13,251 nucleotides of DNA from Nitrospirae bacterium GWC2_42_7 (GTDB lineage: Bacteria > Nitrospirota > Thermodesulfovibrionia > Thermodesulfovibrionales > UBA6898), in NCBI GenBank assembly GCA_001803645.1, contig MHDW01000190.1, positions 1 to 13,251 of the forward strand, written 5' to 3'. Both the position numbers and the translations under genes were made by a program. Below the pieces are notes generated by a model that did not search any database, was not told where the DNA came from, and worked only from the letters and a program-made list of their open reading frames with translations. This document shows positions 1-13,034 of this stretch, piece by piece; position 1 is the stretch's first letter; every line of letters begins with the position of its first letter.

Positions 1-276
1 TCGTTAGTAAAATCGAGCATAATAAGAGGGCCGGTGGTCATTGGCAGGAATACAATAATAGAGAATTCCTTTATCGGGCCTCATACGAGCATAGGCGATG
101 ATGTCAGGATAATAAACTCATCAATAGAGCATTCTGTGATAATGAACGGCAGCGAGATTCTGGACATAGAGAGGATGGAAGAGAGCCTTATCGGCAGAAG
201 GGTCAGAATAGTCAGGAACAGCAGGCATAGCGCCCTGAGGCTGATGCTCGGAGATGACTCTGTGATGGAAGTCTGA
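1..276 (+). CDS. Glucose-1-phosphate thymidylyltransferase (long form), C-terminal fragment
   Basis: The reading frame is open from base 1 to the TGA at 274-276, so this is the last 91 residues of a gene that begins outside the window. It shows imperfect hexapeptide repeats of the left-handed beta-helix type (IIRGPVVIGRNTIIENSFIG, then HTSIGDDVRI, then SSIEHSVIM). The end, RLMLGDDSVMEV, resembles the tail of the long RmlA-like nucleotidyltransferases found in archaea and many bacteria, which join an N-terminal nucleotidyltransferase domain to such a helix. Those enzymes form dTDP-glucose from glucose-1-phosphate and dTTP for deoxysugar and surface-polysaccharide synthesis. The catalytic domain is not visible, so substrate is assigned from family resemblance only. 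Another sugar-1-phosphate nucleotidyltransferase or a hexapeptide acyltransferase is possible. An internal ATG/GTG start near position 34 is not credible because the repeat pattern runs through it. Confidence 0.7.
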   Translation, partial: SLVKSSIIRGPVVIGRNTIIENSFIGPHTSIGDDVRIINSSIEHSVIMNGSEILDIERMEESLIGRRVRIVRNSRHSALRLMLGDDSVMEV

Positions 277-312
277 AACATTTACACCATATTATTTATA
301 AACCGATCGAGC

Positions 313-451
313 ATTTCCAGGATACGGCGAAAAAATCCTTGAAATCCATAGTTAGTTAAGATGTAATGATCTCCGGGTTTGGGAGTTGTATCTTTGTGTG
401 AATGTTTAGGGCTTATACATTCAAGTAGTTTTTTCTCCGAACCCCGGAAAT
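313..451. repeat. Long-inverted-repeat element, copy A (~139 bp)
   Basis: The outer arms are 313-343 and 420-451. The first arm and the reverse complement of the second agree at about 25 of 31 aligned positions (shared blocks ATTTCC, CGG, GAAAAAA, CTTGAA). A full-length homologue lies at 3083-3222. Besides the arms, the interiors of the two copies also align (shared ATCTCC, TCTTTGT, TTTAG, TTCAAGTA). The interior of this copy contains a small CTCC/GGAG hairpin. It fills most of the gap before the gene at 461, whose start lies 10 bp beyond the element. It may be a MITE-like insertion or a structured RNA. I see no convincing target-site duplication. Confidence 0.65.
339..367 (+). promoter_or_regulatory. 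Candidate sigma-70-type promoter inside copy A
   Basis: TTGAAA (339-344) and TGTAAT (362-367) are separated by 17 bp, each matching the consensus hexamer at 5 of 6 positions. Transcription from here would read into the gene at 461 with a leader of about 85 nt containing most of the right half of the element. The equivalent hexamers in copy B (TTGAAA at 3110, TATAAT at 3136) are 20 bp apart, so promoter function is not conserved between copies. This may be chance in AT-rich DNA. Confidence 0.3.
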
Positions 452-460
452 TTAAAAACA

Positions 461-865
461 ATGAAAACAGTCTTTATAGATTACACAGAAGAATACTATT
501 CAAATACTGCAAGAACAACTGTGCCTGACAAACGCGCCGGCAAGTTTGTACAGCTAAGAAACAATAAAACAGAATATCTTGTTTTTTCTCCTAAAGAACT
601 CTCTCCTTATCATGCAGATATAATAGAGCGGTTCTGCAGGCAGAAGGGAATTGCCGGTGTATATAACAGAGCGCACAAATGTTTTGAGATACATGAGCCT
701 GAGTGGATTATTATTGGGGGCGGGAAGTTCGATTACGACAAAAAGGAAAAGTATCTCCGTCTGTATGATGATTCAATGGCATATGGGAAATTCGAAACAG
801 AAGGGTTGCTCAAAAGGATATTGCAGGTAAAAGGGTTGAAGGATTATAGCGTCAGGATAGAATAA
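461..865 (+). CDS. Janus/Ocnus family protein, PHPT1-like (putative phosphohistidine phosphatase)
   Basis: This 134-residue protein matches the pattern of the animal 14-kDa phosphohistidine phosphatase (PHPT1, about 125 residues). It has PYHADI at 49-54, a GGG turn at 86-88 followed by a strand, DSMAYG at 104-109, and a final KGLKDYSVRI resembling the KYPDYEV end of PHPT1. In PHPT1 the His of YHADI (His53) is the catalytic base and the SMAYG segment helps bind phosphate; the equivalents here are His51 and Ser105 to Ala107. The inferred role is hydrolysis of phosphohistidine or phospholysine in a cytoplasmic protein partner. No histidine kinase is adjacent, so the substrate is unknown. The ATG at 461 has no strong Shine-Dalgarno sequence. 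The assignment rests on motifs recalled from the eukaryotic family. A binding role without catalysis is possible. Confidence 0.68.
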   Translation: MKTVFIDYTEEYYSNTARTTVPDKRAGKFVQLRNNKTEYLVFSPKELSPYHADIIERFCRQKGIAGVYNRAHKCFEIHEPEWIIIGGGKFDYDKKEKYLRLYDDSMAYGKFETEGLLKRILQVKGLKDYSVRIE

Positions 866-930
866 TATCTGCAAATTTGTAATCTTTTAGCTTTTTTCAT
901 CTTGCCTTTGCCATCAAAAATTGAAAGATA

Positions 931-958
931 TTGGTTTAAGTTTCTGGCAAAATAATAT
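931..958 (+). promoter_or_regulatory. Candidate promoter for the GGDEF-EAL gene
   Basis: TTGGTT (931-936) and TAATAT (953-958) are spaced by 16 bp, ending 16 bp before the ATG at 975. Both hexamers are only moderate matches to the sigma-70 consensus. If used, the transcript would be nearly leaderless, which agrees with the lack of a visible Shine-Dalgarno sequence. Confidence 0.3.
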
Positions 959-974
959 AGTATTAATAATATAA

Positions 975-3071
975 ATGGATTCTATTAAATTTATATCATT
1001 TTTGCTTATCGCTGCCGGAGCTCTGCTTCTTGTATTTGCTTTGATGCCTGCCCGTAAGACATGGAATATGGTCCCTGAAAAACTGCGCGCAAAATGGCTT
1101 GCAATTATGTATCTCATATGCTTTTTTGTTGTTGGCTACATCTTTTTTGAAATAGTATTGATCACTGATATCCATTTTTTTGATGATATTGTAACAGGCC
1201 TTGTTTTCTTGGGAGGTGCAATTTTTGTATTTATTACAATTAAACTCTCCAAGAATACCATTCAAAAAATGACAGAAATGGACAATGAACTGAAATTATT
1301 GAATAAGACCCTTGAACAACGCGTAAAAGCAGGTATACTTGATTTGCAGCATTCCTATGATTTTACATCAAATGTGATTGACAGCATACCAGATGCAATG
1401 GCGGTCATTGATGTAACTGATTTCCATATCGTTAGCGTTAACAAAGCCTTTCTTCGGGAACTGGACCTGCAGGAAGATATGGTTCTATTAAAAACCTGCC
1501 ATGAGGTAACGCATCAAAGTTCTTCTCCTTGCGGGCCCCCGAATGATATCTGTCCATTGCATGAAATGCTGCTAACAGGAAAATCTTCATCTGCAGAGCA
1601 TATACACTATAACTCATCAGGGGAAAAACTACATTTTGAAGTCACTACAACACCTATTAAAGATAACAGTGGCATGATAATACTTGCTATACATATTGCC
1701 AGAGATATTACTGCGCGCAAAAAGGCTGAAGAGAAGATCAAGCACCTTGCATATTACGATAATATTACAGGACTGCCAAACCGTACTTTTTATAAGGAAC
1801 TATTGGCCCGTGAAATAGCTTATGCCAGGCGTTATAACCAGCCATTGTTCACGCTTTTCATTGATCTTGATTCATTTAAACAGGTGAATGATACTTTGGG
1901 CCACGACATCGGCGACCAACTGTTAAAGGCTGTTGGTGATAGGCTGGCGAGATCCCTTCGCAACAGCGACGAGGTTGCCCGTATGGATGATGGGCAAACT
2001 CCGGAAACTGTATCGCGCCTCGGCGGAGACGAGTTCATTGTTTTACTAAGAGGGATTTCTAAAACTGAGGACGCAGCTATAGTGGCAGGACGTATATTAC
2101 AGGATATATCAGAGCCTTTAGAAATTGGCGGTCATGAGATAACTATTACAGCCAGCATCGGCATATCAGTCTATCCAACAGATGGAGAGGATGTTAAGAC
2201 TCTTATGAAGAGCGCAGATCTTGCAATGTATCATGCTAAAGACAAAGGGAAGAACAATTATCAGTTCTATTCAAGCAATATGAATGTTGTTGTATTAAAA
2301 CGGCTTTCTCTGGAGAATGATCTCCGCAAGGCCTTGGAGCACAATGAGTTCCTGTTGTACTACCAGCCGAAAGTAGCCATTAAAAATAATAAAATTGTTG
2401 GCGCTGAAGCCCTGCTCAGATGGCAGCATCCTGGAAGCGGAATTGTATCTCCTCTGGATTTTATACCCGTTGCTGAGGAGACCGGACTGATAGTGCCAAT
2501 TGGTGAATGGGTAATACGCACTGCATGTCAACAGAATAAGGAATGGCAGAAATTAGGTTTTGAACCAATAAGCATTGCAGTTAATCTCTCCAACCGCCAG
2601 TTTGAGCAATCAAACCTTCTGGAAATGATTATCCGCACACTAAAAGAGATTGATATGGCAACAAAGTATGTTGAACTCGAAATAACTGAGAGCTCCCTCA
2701 TGAAAAACCCTGATGCAGCCATAGCTATTCTCAATGAACTAAAAGATATCGGCATAACTATAGCCATTGATGACTTTGGCACAGGATACTCCTCCTTAGA
2801 GTACCTGAAAAGAATTCCTCTGAATTCCCTGAAGATAGCACTTCCTTTTATCAGAAATATCCTTACAAGCCCTGATGATGCTGCAATAACAAAAACGATC
2901 ATTACTCTGGCACATAACATGAATTTAAAGGTCATTGCTGAAGGAGTAGAAACCAAAGAGCAGCTTGATTTCCTGCGCACACTCGGATGTGATGAAGTGC
3001 AGGGATACTTTTTCAGCAAGCCCTTGCCTGCCGATGAATTTATGAAACTGCTTCAGAAAGGATATTTCTAG
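975..3071 (+). CDS. Membrane-anchored PAS-GGDEF-EAL c-di-GMP signalling protein
   Basis: A 698-residue protein: three membrane segments (about 5-23, 42-65, 72-90), a coiled-coil linker (about 95-130), a PAS domain (about 131-248), GGDEF (about 258-435) and EAL (about 440-695). GGDEF should make c-di-GMP: the signature is intact at 350-354, as is the DLDSFKQVNDTLGHD metal/substrate region. An RxxD product-inhibition site is absent; QTPE stands in its place, and about 11 extra residues sit before RLGGDEF, a variant I have seen in other family members. EAL keeps E478, N537, E569, D599-D600, E656 and Q676. However, the usual LKIDRSF reads LKIALPF (620-624), so a normally conserved Asp is Ala622 and hydrolysis may be reduced. 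The PAS domain has a Cys/His cluster (CHEVTH, PCGPP, ICPLH at 175-196) that may bind metal or sense redox. Probably a bifunctional or cyclase-biased sensor. Confidence 0.92.
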   Translation: MDSIKFISFLLIAAGALLLVFALMPARKTWNMVPEKLRAKWLAIMYLICFFVVGYIFFEIVLITDIHFFDDIVTGLVFLGGAIFVFITIKLSKNTIQKMTEMDNELKLLNKTLEQRVKAGILDLQHSYDFTSNVIDSIPDAMAVIDVTDFHIVSVNKAFLRELDLQEDMVLLKTCHEVTHQSSSPCGPPNDICPLHEMLLTGKSSSAEHIHYNSSGEKLHFEVTTTPIKDNSGMIILAIHIARDITARKKAEEKIKHLAYYDNITGLPNRTFYKELLAREIAYARRYNQPLFTLFIDLDSFKQVNDTLGHDIGDQLLKAVGDRLARSLRNSDEVARMDDGQTPETVSRLGGDEFIVLLRGISKTEDAAIVAGRILQDISEPLEIGGHEITITASIGISVYPTDGEDVKTLMKSADLAMYHAKDKGKNNYQFYSSNMNVVVLKRLSLENDLRKALEHNEFLLYYQPKVAIKNNKIVGAEALLRWQHPGSGIVSPLDFIPVAEETGLIVPIGEWVIRTACQQNKEWQKLGFEPISIAVNLSNRQFEQSNLLEMIIRTLKEIDMATKYVELEITESSLMKNPDAAIAILNELKDIGITIAIDDFGTGYSSLEYLKRIPLNSLKIALPFIRNILTSPDDAAITKTIITLAHNMNLKVIAEGVETKEQLDFLRTLGCDEVQGYFFSKPLPADEFMKLLQKGYF

Positions 3072-3082
3072 CCCGTTTGTAT

Positions 3083-3222
3083 ATTTCTCAAATACGGCTA
3101 AAAAAATTCTTGAAATCCTCATGTTTTGAGGGATTTATAATCTCCCTTTTCCTAACCATGTGTCTTTGTCTGTAACTTTAGATCTTGTACCTTCAAGTAT
3201 TTTTCCCCCGCATCTGAGAAAT
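3083..3222. repeat. Long-inverted-repeat element, copy B (~140 bp)
   Basis: The arms are 3083-3114 and 3192-3222, sharing ATTTCTCA, a CGG block, an A-run and CTTGAA with only a few mismatches. The element is homologous over its full length to 313-451 and nearly the same size. It sits between two convergent genes, the c-di-GMP protein (stop at 3071) and the radical SAM gene (stop at 3257), and fills almost the whole gap. An inner AGGGA/TCCCT hairpin (about 3129-3147) could add structure. By position it could act as a bidirectional transcription barrier, but neither side has a classic terminator U-run at the stem base. Confidence 0.65.
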
Positions 3223-3256
3223 CCATGAATTAAGTGGGCTAGCAAACTTTGATTTA

Positions 3257-4231
3257 TTATGTTCTGCATCTTATATCCGGCATGTCAGGGTTGTTGTAAT
3301 GAAAATATCCATGCGCCGGACAGCCGCCTGTGCATGAAGCTTTGTTTGAACAATCTTTAGTATCACAATGGTTTGCCTTATGCTTCCTGAAGAAGTCGAG
3401 TTTCGGATTCATCCAGATGTCCTCGAATCTATCTTTGAACAGATTACCGAGGTAGAAAGTTTCCACATTATGAAAGAGGTTGCATGGGAACACAGAGCCG
3501 TCAGAGAGTATCGATAGTTTTTTAACTCCTCCTGCACATCTCGAATTTTCAGGAAGAGAATCTTTTTCAAAACAGGATGCGTTGACCTTATAGATGCTGA
3601 TGTCATTGTTTGCTTCTTTTAATTTTTGAAAGAAGTCCATGAAATCGGCAAAGTCTAAAGTTTCATTTATATTCGATGAATTACGTGACAAAACATCCAT
3701 ATGAAGAAGATAATATTGCTGCACTCCCATATCTTTCAGAAGGTCTACTATATTCTGAATATCATCGAGAGAACTTCTACTGACCACTGTCTTGACAATG
3801 GGGTTTAGGCCTGATCCAATAAGCTGCCTGATGCTCGCAATTGCGTTATTGAAATGAGAGGAATTTGTGATCGAATTATGTTTCAACTCATCACTTCCTT
3901 CAAGAGAGATTCCTATCCTGAAATTATCCTGGTTCAGCCCGGAAAATTTAGGCATAAAATCAGGAAGGCTTCCATTTGTGCTGATATTGACAGAGATATT
4001 TTTGTTTAAAGCAAGCTTAATAAAATCATATATCCATTTTACCAGTAACGGCTCACCGCCCATGATATCTATCTTTGCAATACCAGTCTCAGAGAGAATA
4101 TCCAGGAGTTTCAGCGCTCTCTCATATGGCATCTCAATATTATTGCTGCTGCCGTTAAAACAGAAAGAACATCTCTGATTGCATCTAGTTGTCGGATATA
4201 ACTGGATATATTCAGGTGGAGGGAAAGGCAT
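3257..4231 (-). CDS. Radical SAM protein with SPASM domain
   Basis: A 324-residue enzyme. TTRCNQRCSFCF gives the radical SAM CxxxCxxC (Cys17, 21, 24), which holds the [4Fe-4S] cluster that cleaves S-adenosylmethionine. GGEP follows at 58-61, and a TIM-barrel-like region runs to about 215. The C-terminus is a SPASM-type auxiliary cluster domain: Cys232, then G245-x4-C250, then Cys289, 294, 300, 304 and 322. The CX4CX5CX3C spacing is slightly wider than the usual CX2CX5CX3C. SPASM enzymes modify ribosomal peptides (PqqE, AlbA types), mature enzymes (anSME type) or act on small molecules. I see no precursor peptide or sulfatase gene nearby, so the substrate is unknown. It is the last gene of the minus-strand run, separated from the flavoprotein gene by a palindromic repeat pair. 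No clear Shine-Dalgarno sequence precedes the ATG; no better in-frame start was seen. Confidence 0.9.
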   Translation of the reverse strand: MPFPPPEYIQLYPTTRCNQRCSFCFNGSSNNIEMPYERALKLLDILSETGIAKIDIMGGEPLLVKWIYDFIKLALNKNISVNISTNGSLPDFMPKFSGLNQDNFRIGISLEGSDELKHNSITNSSHFNNAIASIRQLIGSGLNPIVKTVVSRSSLDDIQNIVDLLKDMGVQQYYLLHMDVLSRNSSNINETLDFADFMDFFQKLKEANNDISIYKVNASCFEKDSLPENSRCAGGVKKLSILSDGSVFPCNLFHNVETFYLGNLFKDRFEDIWMNPKLDFFRKHKANHCDTKDCSNKASCTGGCPAHGYFHYNNPDMPDIRCRT

Positions 4232-4260
4232 TATTATGTAGTTAATAGGTAAGGCCCCCT

Positions 4261-4339
4261 CACCCTCGCCCTCTCCCTCCAGGGGAGAGGGTTGTAAATA
4301 TTTCCCCTCCCTTGAGGGGAGGGGATGAAGGGGAGGGTG
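4261..4339. repeat. REP/BIME-like inverted pair of GC-rich palindromes, array 1
   Basis: Two hairpin units face each other around a 12-bp AT-rich spacer: CACCCTCGCCCTCTCC...GGGGAGAGGG on the left and CCCCTCCCTTGAGGGGAGGG with a GAGGGTG tail on the right. The same core recurs at 6543-6628 and 8187-8270. The pattern (palindrome plus short conserved tail, in inverted pairs, always intergenic) is that of bacterial REP/BIME sequences, whose spread is linked to RAYT (TnpA_REP) transposases. No RAYT gene is in this window. Confidence 0.8.
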
Positions 4340-6530: not shown

Positions 6531-6542
6531 GGTACTTACATT

Positions 6543-6628
6543 CCCTCCCTCGAGGGGAGGGTGTGTGTTAAGCCTTTTGCAATTACTTTAATCACCCTCT
6601 TCCAACCCTCTCCCCTCAAGGGAGAGGG
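6543..6628. repeat. REP/BIME-like inverted pair of GC-rich palindromes, array 2
   Basis: The left unit is CCCTCCCTCGAGGGGAGGG with a TGTGTG tail. The right unit is a CACCCTCTTCC lead followed by the palindrome AACCCTCTCCCCTCAAGGGAGAGGG region. The spacer is about 30 bp, longer than in array 1. It occupies the gap between the desulforedoxin and octaheme cytochrome genes and shares core and tail with arrays 1 and 3. In RNA each unit would form a stable hairpin that could attenuate transcription or protect the upstream message. Confidence 0.75.
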
Positions 6629-8150: not shown

Positions 8151-8186
8151 TCAGTTTTTGTTTTTATCAGTCATTGCCGCGAAAAT

Positions 8187-8270
8187 CACCCTCTCCCAAC
8201 CCTCCCCCCTCAAGGGGGAGGATATTTTTGAGAGCCCCTCCCTTGAGGGGAGGGGACTGAGGGGAGGGTG
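8187..8270. repeat. REP/BIME-like inverted pair of GC-rich palindromes, array 3
   Basis: The left unit is CACCCTCTCCCAACCCTCCC followed by CCCTCAAGGGGGAGG. The right unit is CCCCTCCCTTGAGGGGAGGG with an ACTGAGGGGAGGGTG tail. They are inverted about a 13-bp spacer. The right unit is nearly identical to the right unit of array 1 (4304-4339). It lies between the ferritin-like and flavodiiron genes. The rest of that 247-bp gap (8271-8355) shows no gene or recognisable motif. Confidence 0.8.
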
Positions 8271-11681: not shown

Positions 11682-13034
11682 ATGAAGAAAGTTAAATTGA
11701 TTACGGTAGTATTGTTTCTTATCTTCTCAGTATCAGCCTATGCAGCACCGCTTTTTGATAAGCTTTATTATTCTGCAAGGACAACGAAGCTTCTTCCGGG
11801 CACTTACACCTTGAGATTCAGCATTTGGGACGCTGCTTCAAAAGGCGGAACAATGCTATGGTCAGAGGAGCATACAATGGCTCTGACAGACAACATGATC
11901 GAAGATGTTCTCGGAGATGTAACTCCCCTGCCCGATATAGACTACAGTCTTCCATTGTATGTGCAGGTGGACACTTTGACAGGCACAAAATATAAGGCAA
12001 TATCCAAGACAAGGGAAAGGCTTGAAGCTTCTCCAGAAGCTCACTGGAGATATTACGGCGTTGATAATTTTTTTGCCGGAATTCAGGCAGGCAATCTCAC
12101 AATGACAGGCGTCTATAACACAGCCATCGGAAATTCTGCGCTCAATTCTAACACCACAGGCACCTCCAACACAGCCAGCGGATATGCTTCGCTAAATTTC
12201 AACACCACAGGCACCTCCAACACAGCTACCGGATATTATTCGCTCCTTTTAAACAGCACCGGCGGCTGGAACACAGCCATCGGAAGTGCTTCGCTCTTTT
12301 ACAACACCTTAGGTTACTATAACACCGCCAGCGGTGCAGAAGCCCTCTATTCCAATATCTCAGGCACCTCCAACACAGCCAGCGGAAATAGGGCACTCTT
12401 ATTTAACACCACAGGCTCCAACAACACAGCAAATGGTGCAGATACTCTGCAAAGTAACACCTCAGGTCACTATAACACCGCCAGCGGATATTCTGCGCTC
12501 TATTCCAACATAACAGGCAACAACAACACAGCTATCGGCTATTTTGCAGATGTATCATCAGGCAACCTTTCAAATGCAACTGCTATAGGATACAACGCCA
12601 AAGTAAATGCCTCGAACAAGGTAGTCATAGGGAATAATTCTGTAACAACGATCGGCGGGTATGCGGCATGGTCCAACTTCTCTGACCTGCGGTCAAAGGC
12701 GGATATCCAAGACATCGGATATGGTCTTGATCTCATCAGACAGCTCCGGCCAGTGTCTTTCAAAATGAAGAATGGCAATAACAATACCGATTTTGGTTTC
12801 GTAGCACAGGAAATCGAGGCTCTTATAGGTACAGAGTATAACGTTCTCGATATCGGGGGCGGGGATGAGAGAATGTTGTCGCTCAGATACACACAATTCA
12901 TCGCTCCAATGGTGAAGGCAATGCAGGAACAGCAGGAGATAATTGAGGAACAGCAGTCACAGATACAAGCACAGCGGATGATGATCGAACAGCTTATGGC
13001 AGATATGAAGGAATTAAGGAAAAGGATTCAATAG
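11682..13034 (+). CDS. Secreted repeat protein with C-terminal S74 intramolecular chaperone domain
   Basis: A 450-residue protein. A signal peptide (1-21, hydrophobic core ITVVLFLIFSV, cut after AYA) sends it out of the cytoplasm. Residues 25-120 form a beta-rich domain (LPGTYTLRFSIWDAASKGG, PLYVQVDTLTG) of a type seen in other secreted bacterial proteins. Residues 146-281 are eight 17-residue repeats of form NTAxGxxALxxNTTGxx, followed by a degenerate ninth unit and a YadA-head-like NATAIGYNAKV segment; a trimeric beta-roll is expected. Residues 330-410 match peptidase S74, the self-cleaving chaperone of phage tail spikes, with FSDLRSK carrying the Ser334-Asp335 cleavage site and Lys339. A Gln/Glu-rich coiled coil (412-450) ends it. 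No membrane anchor is visible. A surface fibre or adhesin is the best guess. No phage genes are adjacent. AGGAGG precedes the ATG. Confidence 0.85.
   Translation: MKKVKLITVVLFLIFSVSAYAAPLFDKLYYSARTTKLLPGTYTLRFSIWDAASKGGTMLWSEEHTMALTDNMIEDVLGDVTPLPDIDYSLPLYVQVDTLTGTKYKAISKTRERLEASPEAHWRYYGVDNFFAGIQAGNLTMTGVYNTAIGNSALNSNTTGTSNTASGYASLNFNTTGTSNTATGYYSLLLNSTGGWNTAIGSASLFYNTLGYYNTASGAEALYSNISGTSNTASGNRALLFNTTGSNNTANGADTLQSNTSGHYNTASGYSALYSNITGNNNTAIGYFADVSSGNLSNATAIGYNAKVNASNKVVIGNNSVTTIGGYAAWSNFSDLRSKADIQDIGYGLDLIRQLRPVSFKMKNGNNNTDFGFVAQEIEALIGTEYNVLDIGGGDERMLSLRYTQFIAPMVKAMQEQQEIIEEQQSQIQAQRMMIEQLMADMKELRKRIQ
12117..12524 (+). repeat. Eight in-frame 51-bp tandem repeats in the fibre-protein gene
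   Basis: Residues 146-281 are encoded by eight units of exactly 51 bp without indels. Strongly conserved blocks such as AACACCACAGGCACCTCCAA and AACACAGCC/AACACCGCC begin units, while the bases for variable residues differ. A ninth, degenerate unit follows to about 12575. Changes in copy number would keep the frame and alter fibre length. Confidence 0.95.

Follow-up and report, generated by a model that had tools for sequence, protein, structure and literature searches.

Two copies of a repeat in the window

The window, by which we mean the whole 13,251 nt stretch analysed, carries two copies of a palindromic repeat, A and B, at the coordinates at which they had been placed in a preliminary description (Table 1). 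Copy A runs with its right end into the start of ORF 461-865; its left end lies at about position 285, and its right end is eroded near the ATG at 461, where the limit is approximate. The TTTA beside its left end has no matching partner on the right. Copy B lies between convergent ORFs which before the insertion would have been separated by a gap of 14 bp, and the TAG of its left CTAG is the stop codon of a GGDEF-EAL ORF (975-3071). About 16 nt of its left end are absent relative to full copies, and positions 3220-3238, read on the minus strand, show one mismatch to CCCACTTAATTCATRAATT.

Local alignment of positions 277-460 with 3072-3240 gave a score of 286, which was reached by none of 2000 dinucleotide shuffles (mean 101.5, sd 15.6, max 169). 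The alignment spans the full length of both copies, in agreement with the earlier view that they represent one repeat family. An oriented alignment with young copies revealed that the element extends past the inverted arms by which it had initially been delimited; these are real stem arms, but they are internal to the element and are not transposon ends. In a tree of the type I copies, the class to which both belong, copy A forms a long, isolated branch. Copy B falls in a young subfamily, its next 16 blastn matches being 80-91% identical. Promoter and simple-terminator predictions in positions 1-4300 of the window were not in excess (13 versus 13.9 and 3 versus 3.0, respectively). The elements are touched by individual predictions, a terminator-like site at 3116-3132 and a promoter-like site on the minus strand at 319-291.

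Table 1. Coordinates in the window of copies A and B, their stems, outer ends and flanking duplications.
Feature	Position	Strand	Basis
Copy A, type I, old copy	285..475	+	Alignment with young copies; model R1 match 309-455
TTTA, possibly left over from the left-hand target duplication of copy A	281..284		Inferred from reading of the sequence
Copy A, left outer (IS1380-like) end, CACCATATTATTTATAAACC	285..304	+	Alignment with young copies
Copy A, outer stem, left arm	313..327	+	Alignment A1, columns 6-20
Copy A, inner stem, left arm CTTGAA	338..343	+	Alignment A1, columns 32-37
Copy A, inner stem, right arm TTCAAG	420..425	+	Alignment A1, columns 118-123
Copy A, outer stem, right arm	437..451	+	Alignment A1, columns 136-150
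Copy B, type I, young subfamily, 167 bp	3072..3238	+	Matches, alignment, covariance model
Copy B, left target duplication CTAG	3068..3071		Sequence
Copy B, outer stem, left arm	3083..3097	+	Alignment A1
Copy B, inner stem, left arm CTTGAA	3109..3114	+	Alignment A1
Copy B, inner stem, right arm TTCAAG	3192..3197	+	Alignment A1
Copy B, outer stem, right arm	3208..3222	+	Alignment A1
Copy B, right outer (IS1380-like) end, ...ATCCATGAATTAAGTGGG	3221..3238	+	Alignment and pattern
Copy B, right target duplication CTAG	3239..3242		Sequence

Family size, outer ends and target duplications

Further copies, which the preliminary description had called for, were readily found in the window's own genome (G000, a 2.58 Mb assembly, 71% complete), where blastn at E≤1 returned 45 matches for copy A and 47 for copy B. 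A covariance model, R1, built from alignment A1 of 28 type I copies, returned 86 rows in G000 (E≤0.01), and because many places match on both strands these were merged by hand to 50 distinct places. That the resemblance of A and B is a chance similarity of AT-rich intergenic sequence, or that of two unrelated hairpins, is ruled out for practical purposes by these copies together with the shuffle test. The relatives searched numbered 41, none from the same genus; among the 26 other genomes of the taxonomic family, R1 matched in G009 only (4 matches). Some type I copies in G000 occur as pairs less than about 300 bp apart in one gap, on the same strand in C113, C80, C24 and C20 and on opposite strands in C146.

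In the oriented alignment the family is bounded by CCCACATTATTCATAAAC at its left side and ATTCATGAATTAAGTGGG at its right, outer ends that measure about 18 bp and have the consensus CCCAC..TWATTCATRAA. These form the terminal inverted repeats CCCACATTATTCATAAA / CCCACTTAATTCATGAA, which agree at 15 of 18 positions in L007. Nearly complete elements are about 167-185 bp long, and type I copies with both ends, other than B, measure 179-185 bp. Identical 4-bp flanks were observed at 17 of 46 inward end pairs lying 40-420 bp apart, the 46 being all pairs in the fetched loci, including spurious pairings of one element; re-pairing gave a mean of 4.3 and a maximum of 12 in 5000 trials. The duplications are mostly YTAR (CTAA, TTAA, TTAG, CTAG). 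A plain TA duplication, as in an IS630/Tc1-type MITE, was rejected as a 4-bp duplication fits better: flank position 1 was repeated in 28 and position 4 in 32 of the 46 pairs, and complementarity of the outer bases was seen in 8 of 46.

IS1380 family transposons with the same ends

Transposons of the IS1380 family (PF13701, NF033539) share the ends and the target of the miniature elements at five loci (L183, L186, L209, L226 and L227). A pattern search identified an element of 1660 bp in Deltaproteobacteria UBA9160 (L183) that has ends of this kind and is flanked by CTAG/CTAG; its two open pieces match the NCBIfam IS1380 model with E values of 1.2e-62 and 5.4e-28. Within the window's own taxonomic family, genome G012 holds a broken IS1380 element (L186; PF13701, E 2.5e-53) with the ends CCCATATAATTCATAAA and CCCACATAATTCATAAA and the flanks CTAG/CTAA. 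An IS1380 element with an open 468-aa frame, flanked by CTAG/CTAG, was found in G170 of the same order (L209), and its right end, CCCACTTAATTCATAAATTT, is that of the G003 elements over 20 nt. The outer ends of about 18 bp and the 4-bp, mostly CTAG, duplications are thus held in common with the IS1380 family, while the elements described here are without a transposase gene, are about 170-190 bp rather than about 1.4-1.7 kb in length and have a long palindrome as interior. Past the first 18 bp the two ends of the IS agree at 3-10 of 27 positions in eight copies, as compared by eye and position. Two of the IS1380 copies start directly behind the TAG that ends a co-directional ORF (L183 3484-3488, L186 819-822); with TAA/TAG forming part of YTAR, the choice of target may by itself account for this.

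The suggestion that the repeat is a MITE has good support from dispersed copies, terminal inverted repeats, 4-bp duplications and, in relatives, IS1380 transposons with the same ends and YTAR target; that the family is a MITE with IS1380-type ends we consider very probable. The enzyme mobilising it is most likely an IS1380-type transposase. A preference for YTAR targets is also known from other IS families, of the IS5/IS4 and IS701 types, and these were examined as partners and rejected: DDE_Tnp_1 (PF01609) had no match in G000, G009 or G005, its six matches in G003 and G024 were not accompanied by a convincing pair of family ends, and DDE_5 (PF13546) had a single match above cut-off in 27 genomes, in G041, with none in G000. 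The IS1380 transposase domain PF13701 likewise had no match in the 71% complete G000 assembly, and from the absence of matches to all three domains there we infer that the supplier was lost, is missing from the assembly or is external.

Exchangeable interiors

A second interior, type II (GGACATAGTATT...CCGCTCAAATACTATRTCC), likewise palindromic, is bounded by the same outer ends as type I. Allowing up to 3 mismatches, its pattern matched 23 times in G000 compared with 0 for the reversed control; type II was also found in G003 and G005, G024 contributed a short relative, and the loci of 'Nitrospirae bacterium WY4.bin7' read identically to those of G003. Several old type I copies are nested in type II (e.g. 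L061, L063, L070, L076). At L159 a 68-bp copy almost without interior carries CTAG on both sides. Given different interiors within the same ends and the copy at L159, it is apparently the outer ends that make up the mobile unit, with the interior as an exchangeable part. A third interior with the same outer ends was seen in G009 (L114, L293, L294, L296, L138, L145 and L148), where an inner stem CTTTTCGT/ACGAAAAG replaces CTTGAA/TTCAAG. Type II copies (L061-L083 in G000, L140-L166 in G003) are often interrupted by small palindromes, e.g. CCTGCCTGCCGGCAGGCAGG, CCCGAAAGCTTTCGGG and CCCCCTTAGTCCCCCCTTGG.

Hairpin, covariation and relatives in the order

The interior is a long imperfect hairpin in which pairing is kept while the sequence changes and whose imperfections for the most part favour the minus strand as the one that folds. 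In the plus-strand alignment both sides had changed in 10 of 21 pairs (3.6 in shuffles) and covariation was 0.122 versus 0.057, neither value being reached in 500 shuffles; further pair types were not above shuffles in this alignment (91 of 500). In a minus-strand alignment of 12 of the 28 type I copies with four from G009, 94.4% of cells pair, both sides had changed in 15 of 27 pairs and covariation was 0.328 versus 0.165, again with 0 of 500 shuffles reaching either value and with 0.095 for the best slid control. Rate variation along type I was significant (lnL -1923.0 under HKY and -1881.6 under HKY+G), with slow sites in the inner arms.

The G009 relatives differ in outer-stem sequence and keep the pairing; three of the four have CTTGAAATC beside an A/T tract, and in the fourth (L114) the inner stem is altered. 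Model R2 matched at least 17 places in G009 and, more weakly, places in nine other genomes of the 176 of the order searched, these weak matches including L282, by eye not of this family, and the ambiguous L283. Seven of the weaker matches align with invariant TCAAAAATTT.TTTAACTCGAT and GTATCGAAAAATAAATTTT, two (L290, L291) adjoin type II arms, and CC-type ends are flanked on both sides by TTAA in L281 and by TATA in L284. The related element in other families of the order (L281, L284-L291) has a nearly invariant core and a variable outer stem.

A structured RNA family had been offered at the outset as the other possible identity of the repeat. This stands at the level of nucleic-acid folding, in the covariation across genera and the strand-specific wobble bias described below, and the RNA itself is predicted only. 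The strongest form of the idea, that the core is chiefly a structured RNA (made from the minus strand, or belonging to the 3' UTR of adjacent mRNAs) that serves the host or the element and that the IS1380-type ends are its vehicle only, would account for minus-strand covariation unmatched in 500 shuffles, for the A/T-rich core nearly invariant in seven aligned order-wide relatives and for the slow inner-arm sites. Against it, Rfam gave no match at the gathering score in seven loci and none over A or B in the window at E≤1, and copies without interior or with type II carry the same ends. We regard it as rather unlikely. The MITE with IS1380-type ends remains our reading of the family, and an RNA role of its elements is suggested by the folding pattern.

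Strand asymmetry of stem departures

Departures from perfect pairing in the stems were strongly asymmetric. Plus-strand A.C, corresponding to minus-strand G.U, outnumbered the reverse by 50 cells to 3 in type I (28 copies) and by 29 to 2 in type II (25 copies). The same direction was observed in G009 (20 to 2, 9 copies) and in the order-wide relatives (18 to 2, 8 copies), five of the nine and all eight of which, respectively, were selected with a minus-strand model. Greater folding stability of the minus strand was seen in 27 of 28 type I, 24 of 25 type II, 9 of 9 G009 and only 5 of 8 order-wide copies. Two inherited column pairs contribute 36 of the 50 type I wobble cells; when each column pair and type was counted once the bias was 22 versus 5 (p 0.0015), a count that leaves some shared descent. 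Loop columns were nearly balanced (27 versus 22). Among departures in the stems of young copies the bias was absent (5 versus 9 cells), and it is thus a feature of the lineages that produce copies, not visibly of copies after insertion.

Confinement of the wobble bias to stems also speaks for a structured RNA. The competing explanation is a purely selfish palindrome, the hairpin of which would be kept as DNA, either as sites for a transposase or host protein or through homogenisation by template switching, with the orientation and wobble asymmetries as accidents of descent. Template switching at quasi-palindromes homogenises palindrome arms, and this process or symmetric binding sites would also yield changes on both sides of the arms; the unbiased drift of young stems fits as well. 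Neither process predicts 22 to 5 column pairs and types in favour of A.C over its counterpart, nor the same wobble direction in type I, type II and the G009 relatives. We consider the selfish palindrome possible at clearly less than even odds. For the IS1380-ended MITE we put selection for minus-strand folding at an even chance.

Placement and orientation

Copies were classed by the neighbouring ORFs, genes being defined by ORF length alone and tandem+ denoting that both neighbours read the plus strand of the element. With ORFs of at least 150 aa, the 45 type I copies counted in G000 comprised 19 tandem+, 0 tandem-, 16 convergent, 3 divergent and 7 undetermined (binomial p for 19:0, 3.8e-6); four of 49 had been dropped, namely L029 (cut by a contig end), L054 1339-1481, L016 283-413 and L201 9-50. 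All 49 copies with ORFs of at least 70 aa, a count that includes copies flagged inside small ORFs, gave 20, 2, 18, 3 and 6 in the same order. For type II, 34 rows were reduced to 27 elements from G000, G003 and G005 by dropping 7 without a left arm, and these gave 12 tandem+, 0 tandem-, 5 convergent, 0 divergent and 10 undetermined; with ORFs of 100 aa the tandem counts were 14 and 1. At two of the type II places a type I copy is present as well, and each of two gaps contains a pair of type I copies; a Fisher test that used 31:0 counts two places twice, type I being nested in type II there.

As a control we used a second, GC-rich palindromic repeat family (CCCTCTCCC...CCCCTCCCTTGAGGGGAGGGG), seen in the window at 4253-4339, 6532-6627 and 8184-8270, with 48 matches in the genome (E≤1e-6) at 30 loci. 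It was found in 6 tandem+, 10 tandem-, 0 convergent and 3 divergent positions, the rest being inside ORFs or undetermined (Fisher 4.4e-5), and the tandem counts were 8 and 13 when copies inside ORFs were included. IS1380 elements showed 3 tandem+ and 2 tandem- among the 11 loci counted, those with an end score >2 (of 19 loci in all, 2 had no ends), from which the orientation rule seems to belong to the miniature elements, on small numbers. No orientation bias was present in G009 (3 tandem+ and 2 tandem- of 9 copies), and orientation was weak in other families of the order (4 and 1 of 9); the orientation part of the claim holds mainly in one genome.

These counts bear on each explanation. Oriented placement in G000 speaks for a structured RNA, and the unbiased G009 copies speak against it. 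The 19 to 0 orientation is unpredicted for a selfish palindrome, with which the absence of an orientation rule among IS1380 copies (3 versus 2) agrees. It might instead be the insertion step itself that is oriented by transcription, e.g. by targeting of transcribed 3' ends, and not a later selection; the strict orientation in G000 of two interiors with the same ends and the position of the L183 and L186 elements exactly at the stop codon of a co-directional ORF would suit this. It is made improbable by the even counts for IS1380 (3 and 2) and G009 (3 and 2), and by two further results. Once the choice of YTAR was allowed for, a further preference for stop codons was unsupported (6 of 19 sites versus 4.1 expected), and hairpins at the target site, as reported for YPAL, were not significant (the palindrome score was reached by 83 of 1000 re-pairings, the folding energy by 15 of 100). 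Right flanks were T-richer (26 versus 8 of 38 pairings), a difference that was set aside because the composition of coding and non-coding DNA could explain it. For the IS1380-ended MITE itself, an explanation of the orientation by folding of the minus strand is doubtful.

Proposed origin and comparison with known elements

We place the account as a whole, at its centre a MITE with IS1380-type ends and an interior hairpin, at a probability of roughly 0.85. A transposase of the IS1380 type, provided in trans at present or formerly, would recognise the CCCAC..TWATTCATRAA ends, excise the element and insert it at YTAR sites, in many cases close to the 3' end of a gene. The minus strand would be, or have been, under selection for single-stranded folding, as RNA or ssDNA, and selection would have removed copies of the opposite orientation from between co-directional genes in G000, a strongly folding strand inside a co-directional transcript being perhaps polar or destabilising. 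The folding and orientation statistics point the same way in two unrelated interiors and in two genera, and the underlying events are partly shared by descent. A superfamily of IS1380-ended MITEs is the safest statement. A bolder proposal, which we hold to be speculative and on balance unlikely, is that such an order-wide superfamily in the Nitrospirota distributes a structured RNA module, with a minus strand foldable through wobble-tolerant, covarying stems and a nearly invariant A/T-rich core; host selection would allow it mainly in one orientation behind genes, and the ends would serve to carry an RNA element with a regulatory or 3'-end role.

Several known systems resemble the family in part. 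According to PMC2229807, the ERIC/IRU and YPAL elements of enterobacteria are likewise small, non-autonomous palindromic elements near genes, and in Yersinia the orientation of ERIC matters for its effect on mRNA. By description in the same source, YPAL differs in having duplications of 3 to 26 bp and internal repeats, as compared with 4-bp YTAR duplications and terminal repeats here. GTAG-terminated REPs, as reported in PMC3733652, lie mostly between co-directional or convergent ORFs, 3' of coding regions, and their termini often provide a TAG stop. These traits resemble those of the present family; REPs are repeats of 20-40 bp, as opposed to about 170-190 bp with IS1380-type ends. TIMEs, miniature elements described in PMC4133298, are also non-autonomous, with shared ends and a mosaic structure, but derive from the Tn3 family and not from IS1380. 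No description of an IS1380-derived MITE was found in the excerpts available from literature on IS1380 together with MITEs or non-autonomous elements, and the main text of a review of prokaryotic MITEs contains no mention of IS1380, orientation, stop codon, YTAR, nested or Nitrospir-.

The family provides a concrete case of a mobile-element hairpin evolving under a measurable strand-specific folding bias, with a measurable constraint on orientation in one genome, and it makes the distinction between passive palindromes and working RNA structures in bacterial MITEs directly testable. It also accounts for repeats that will recur in the annotation of these Nitrospirota genomes. Elsewhere in the window, positions 12054-12563 hold eight 51-bp direct repeats within ORF 11682-13034, whose product looks like a repetitive protein of surface type.
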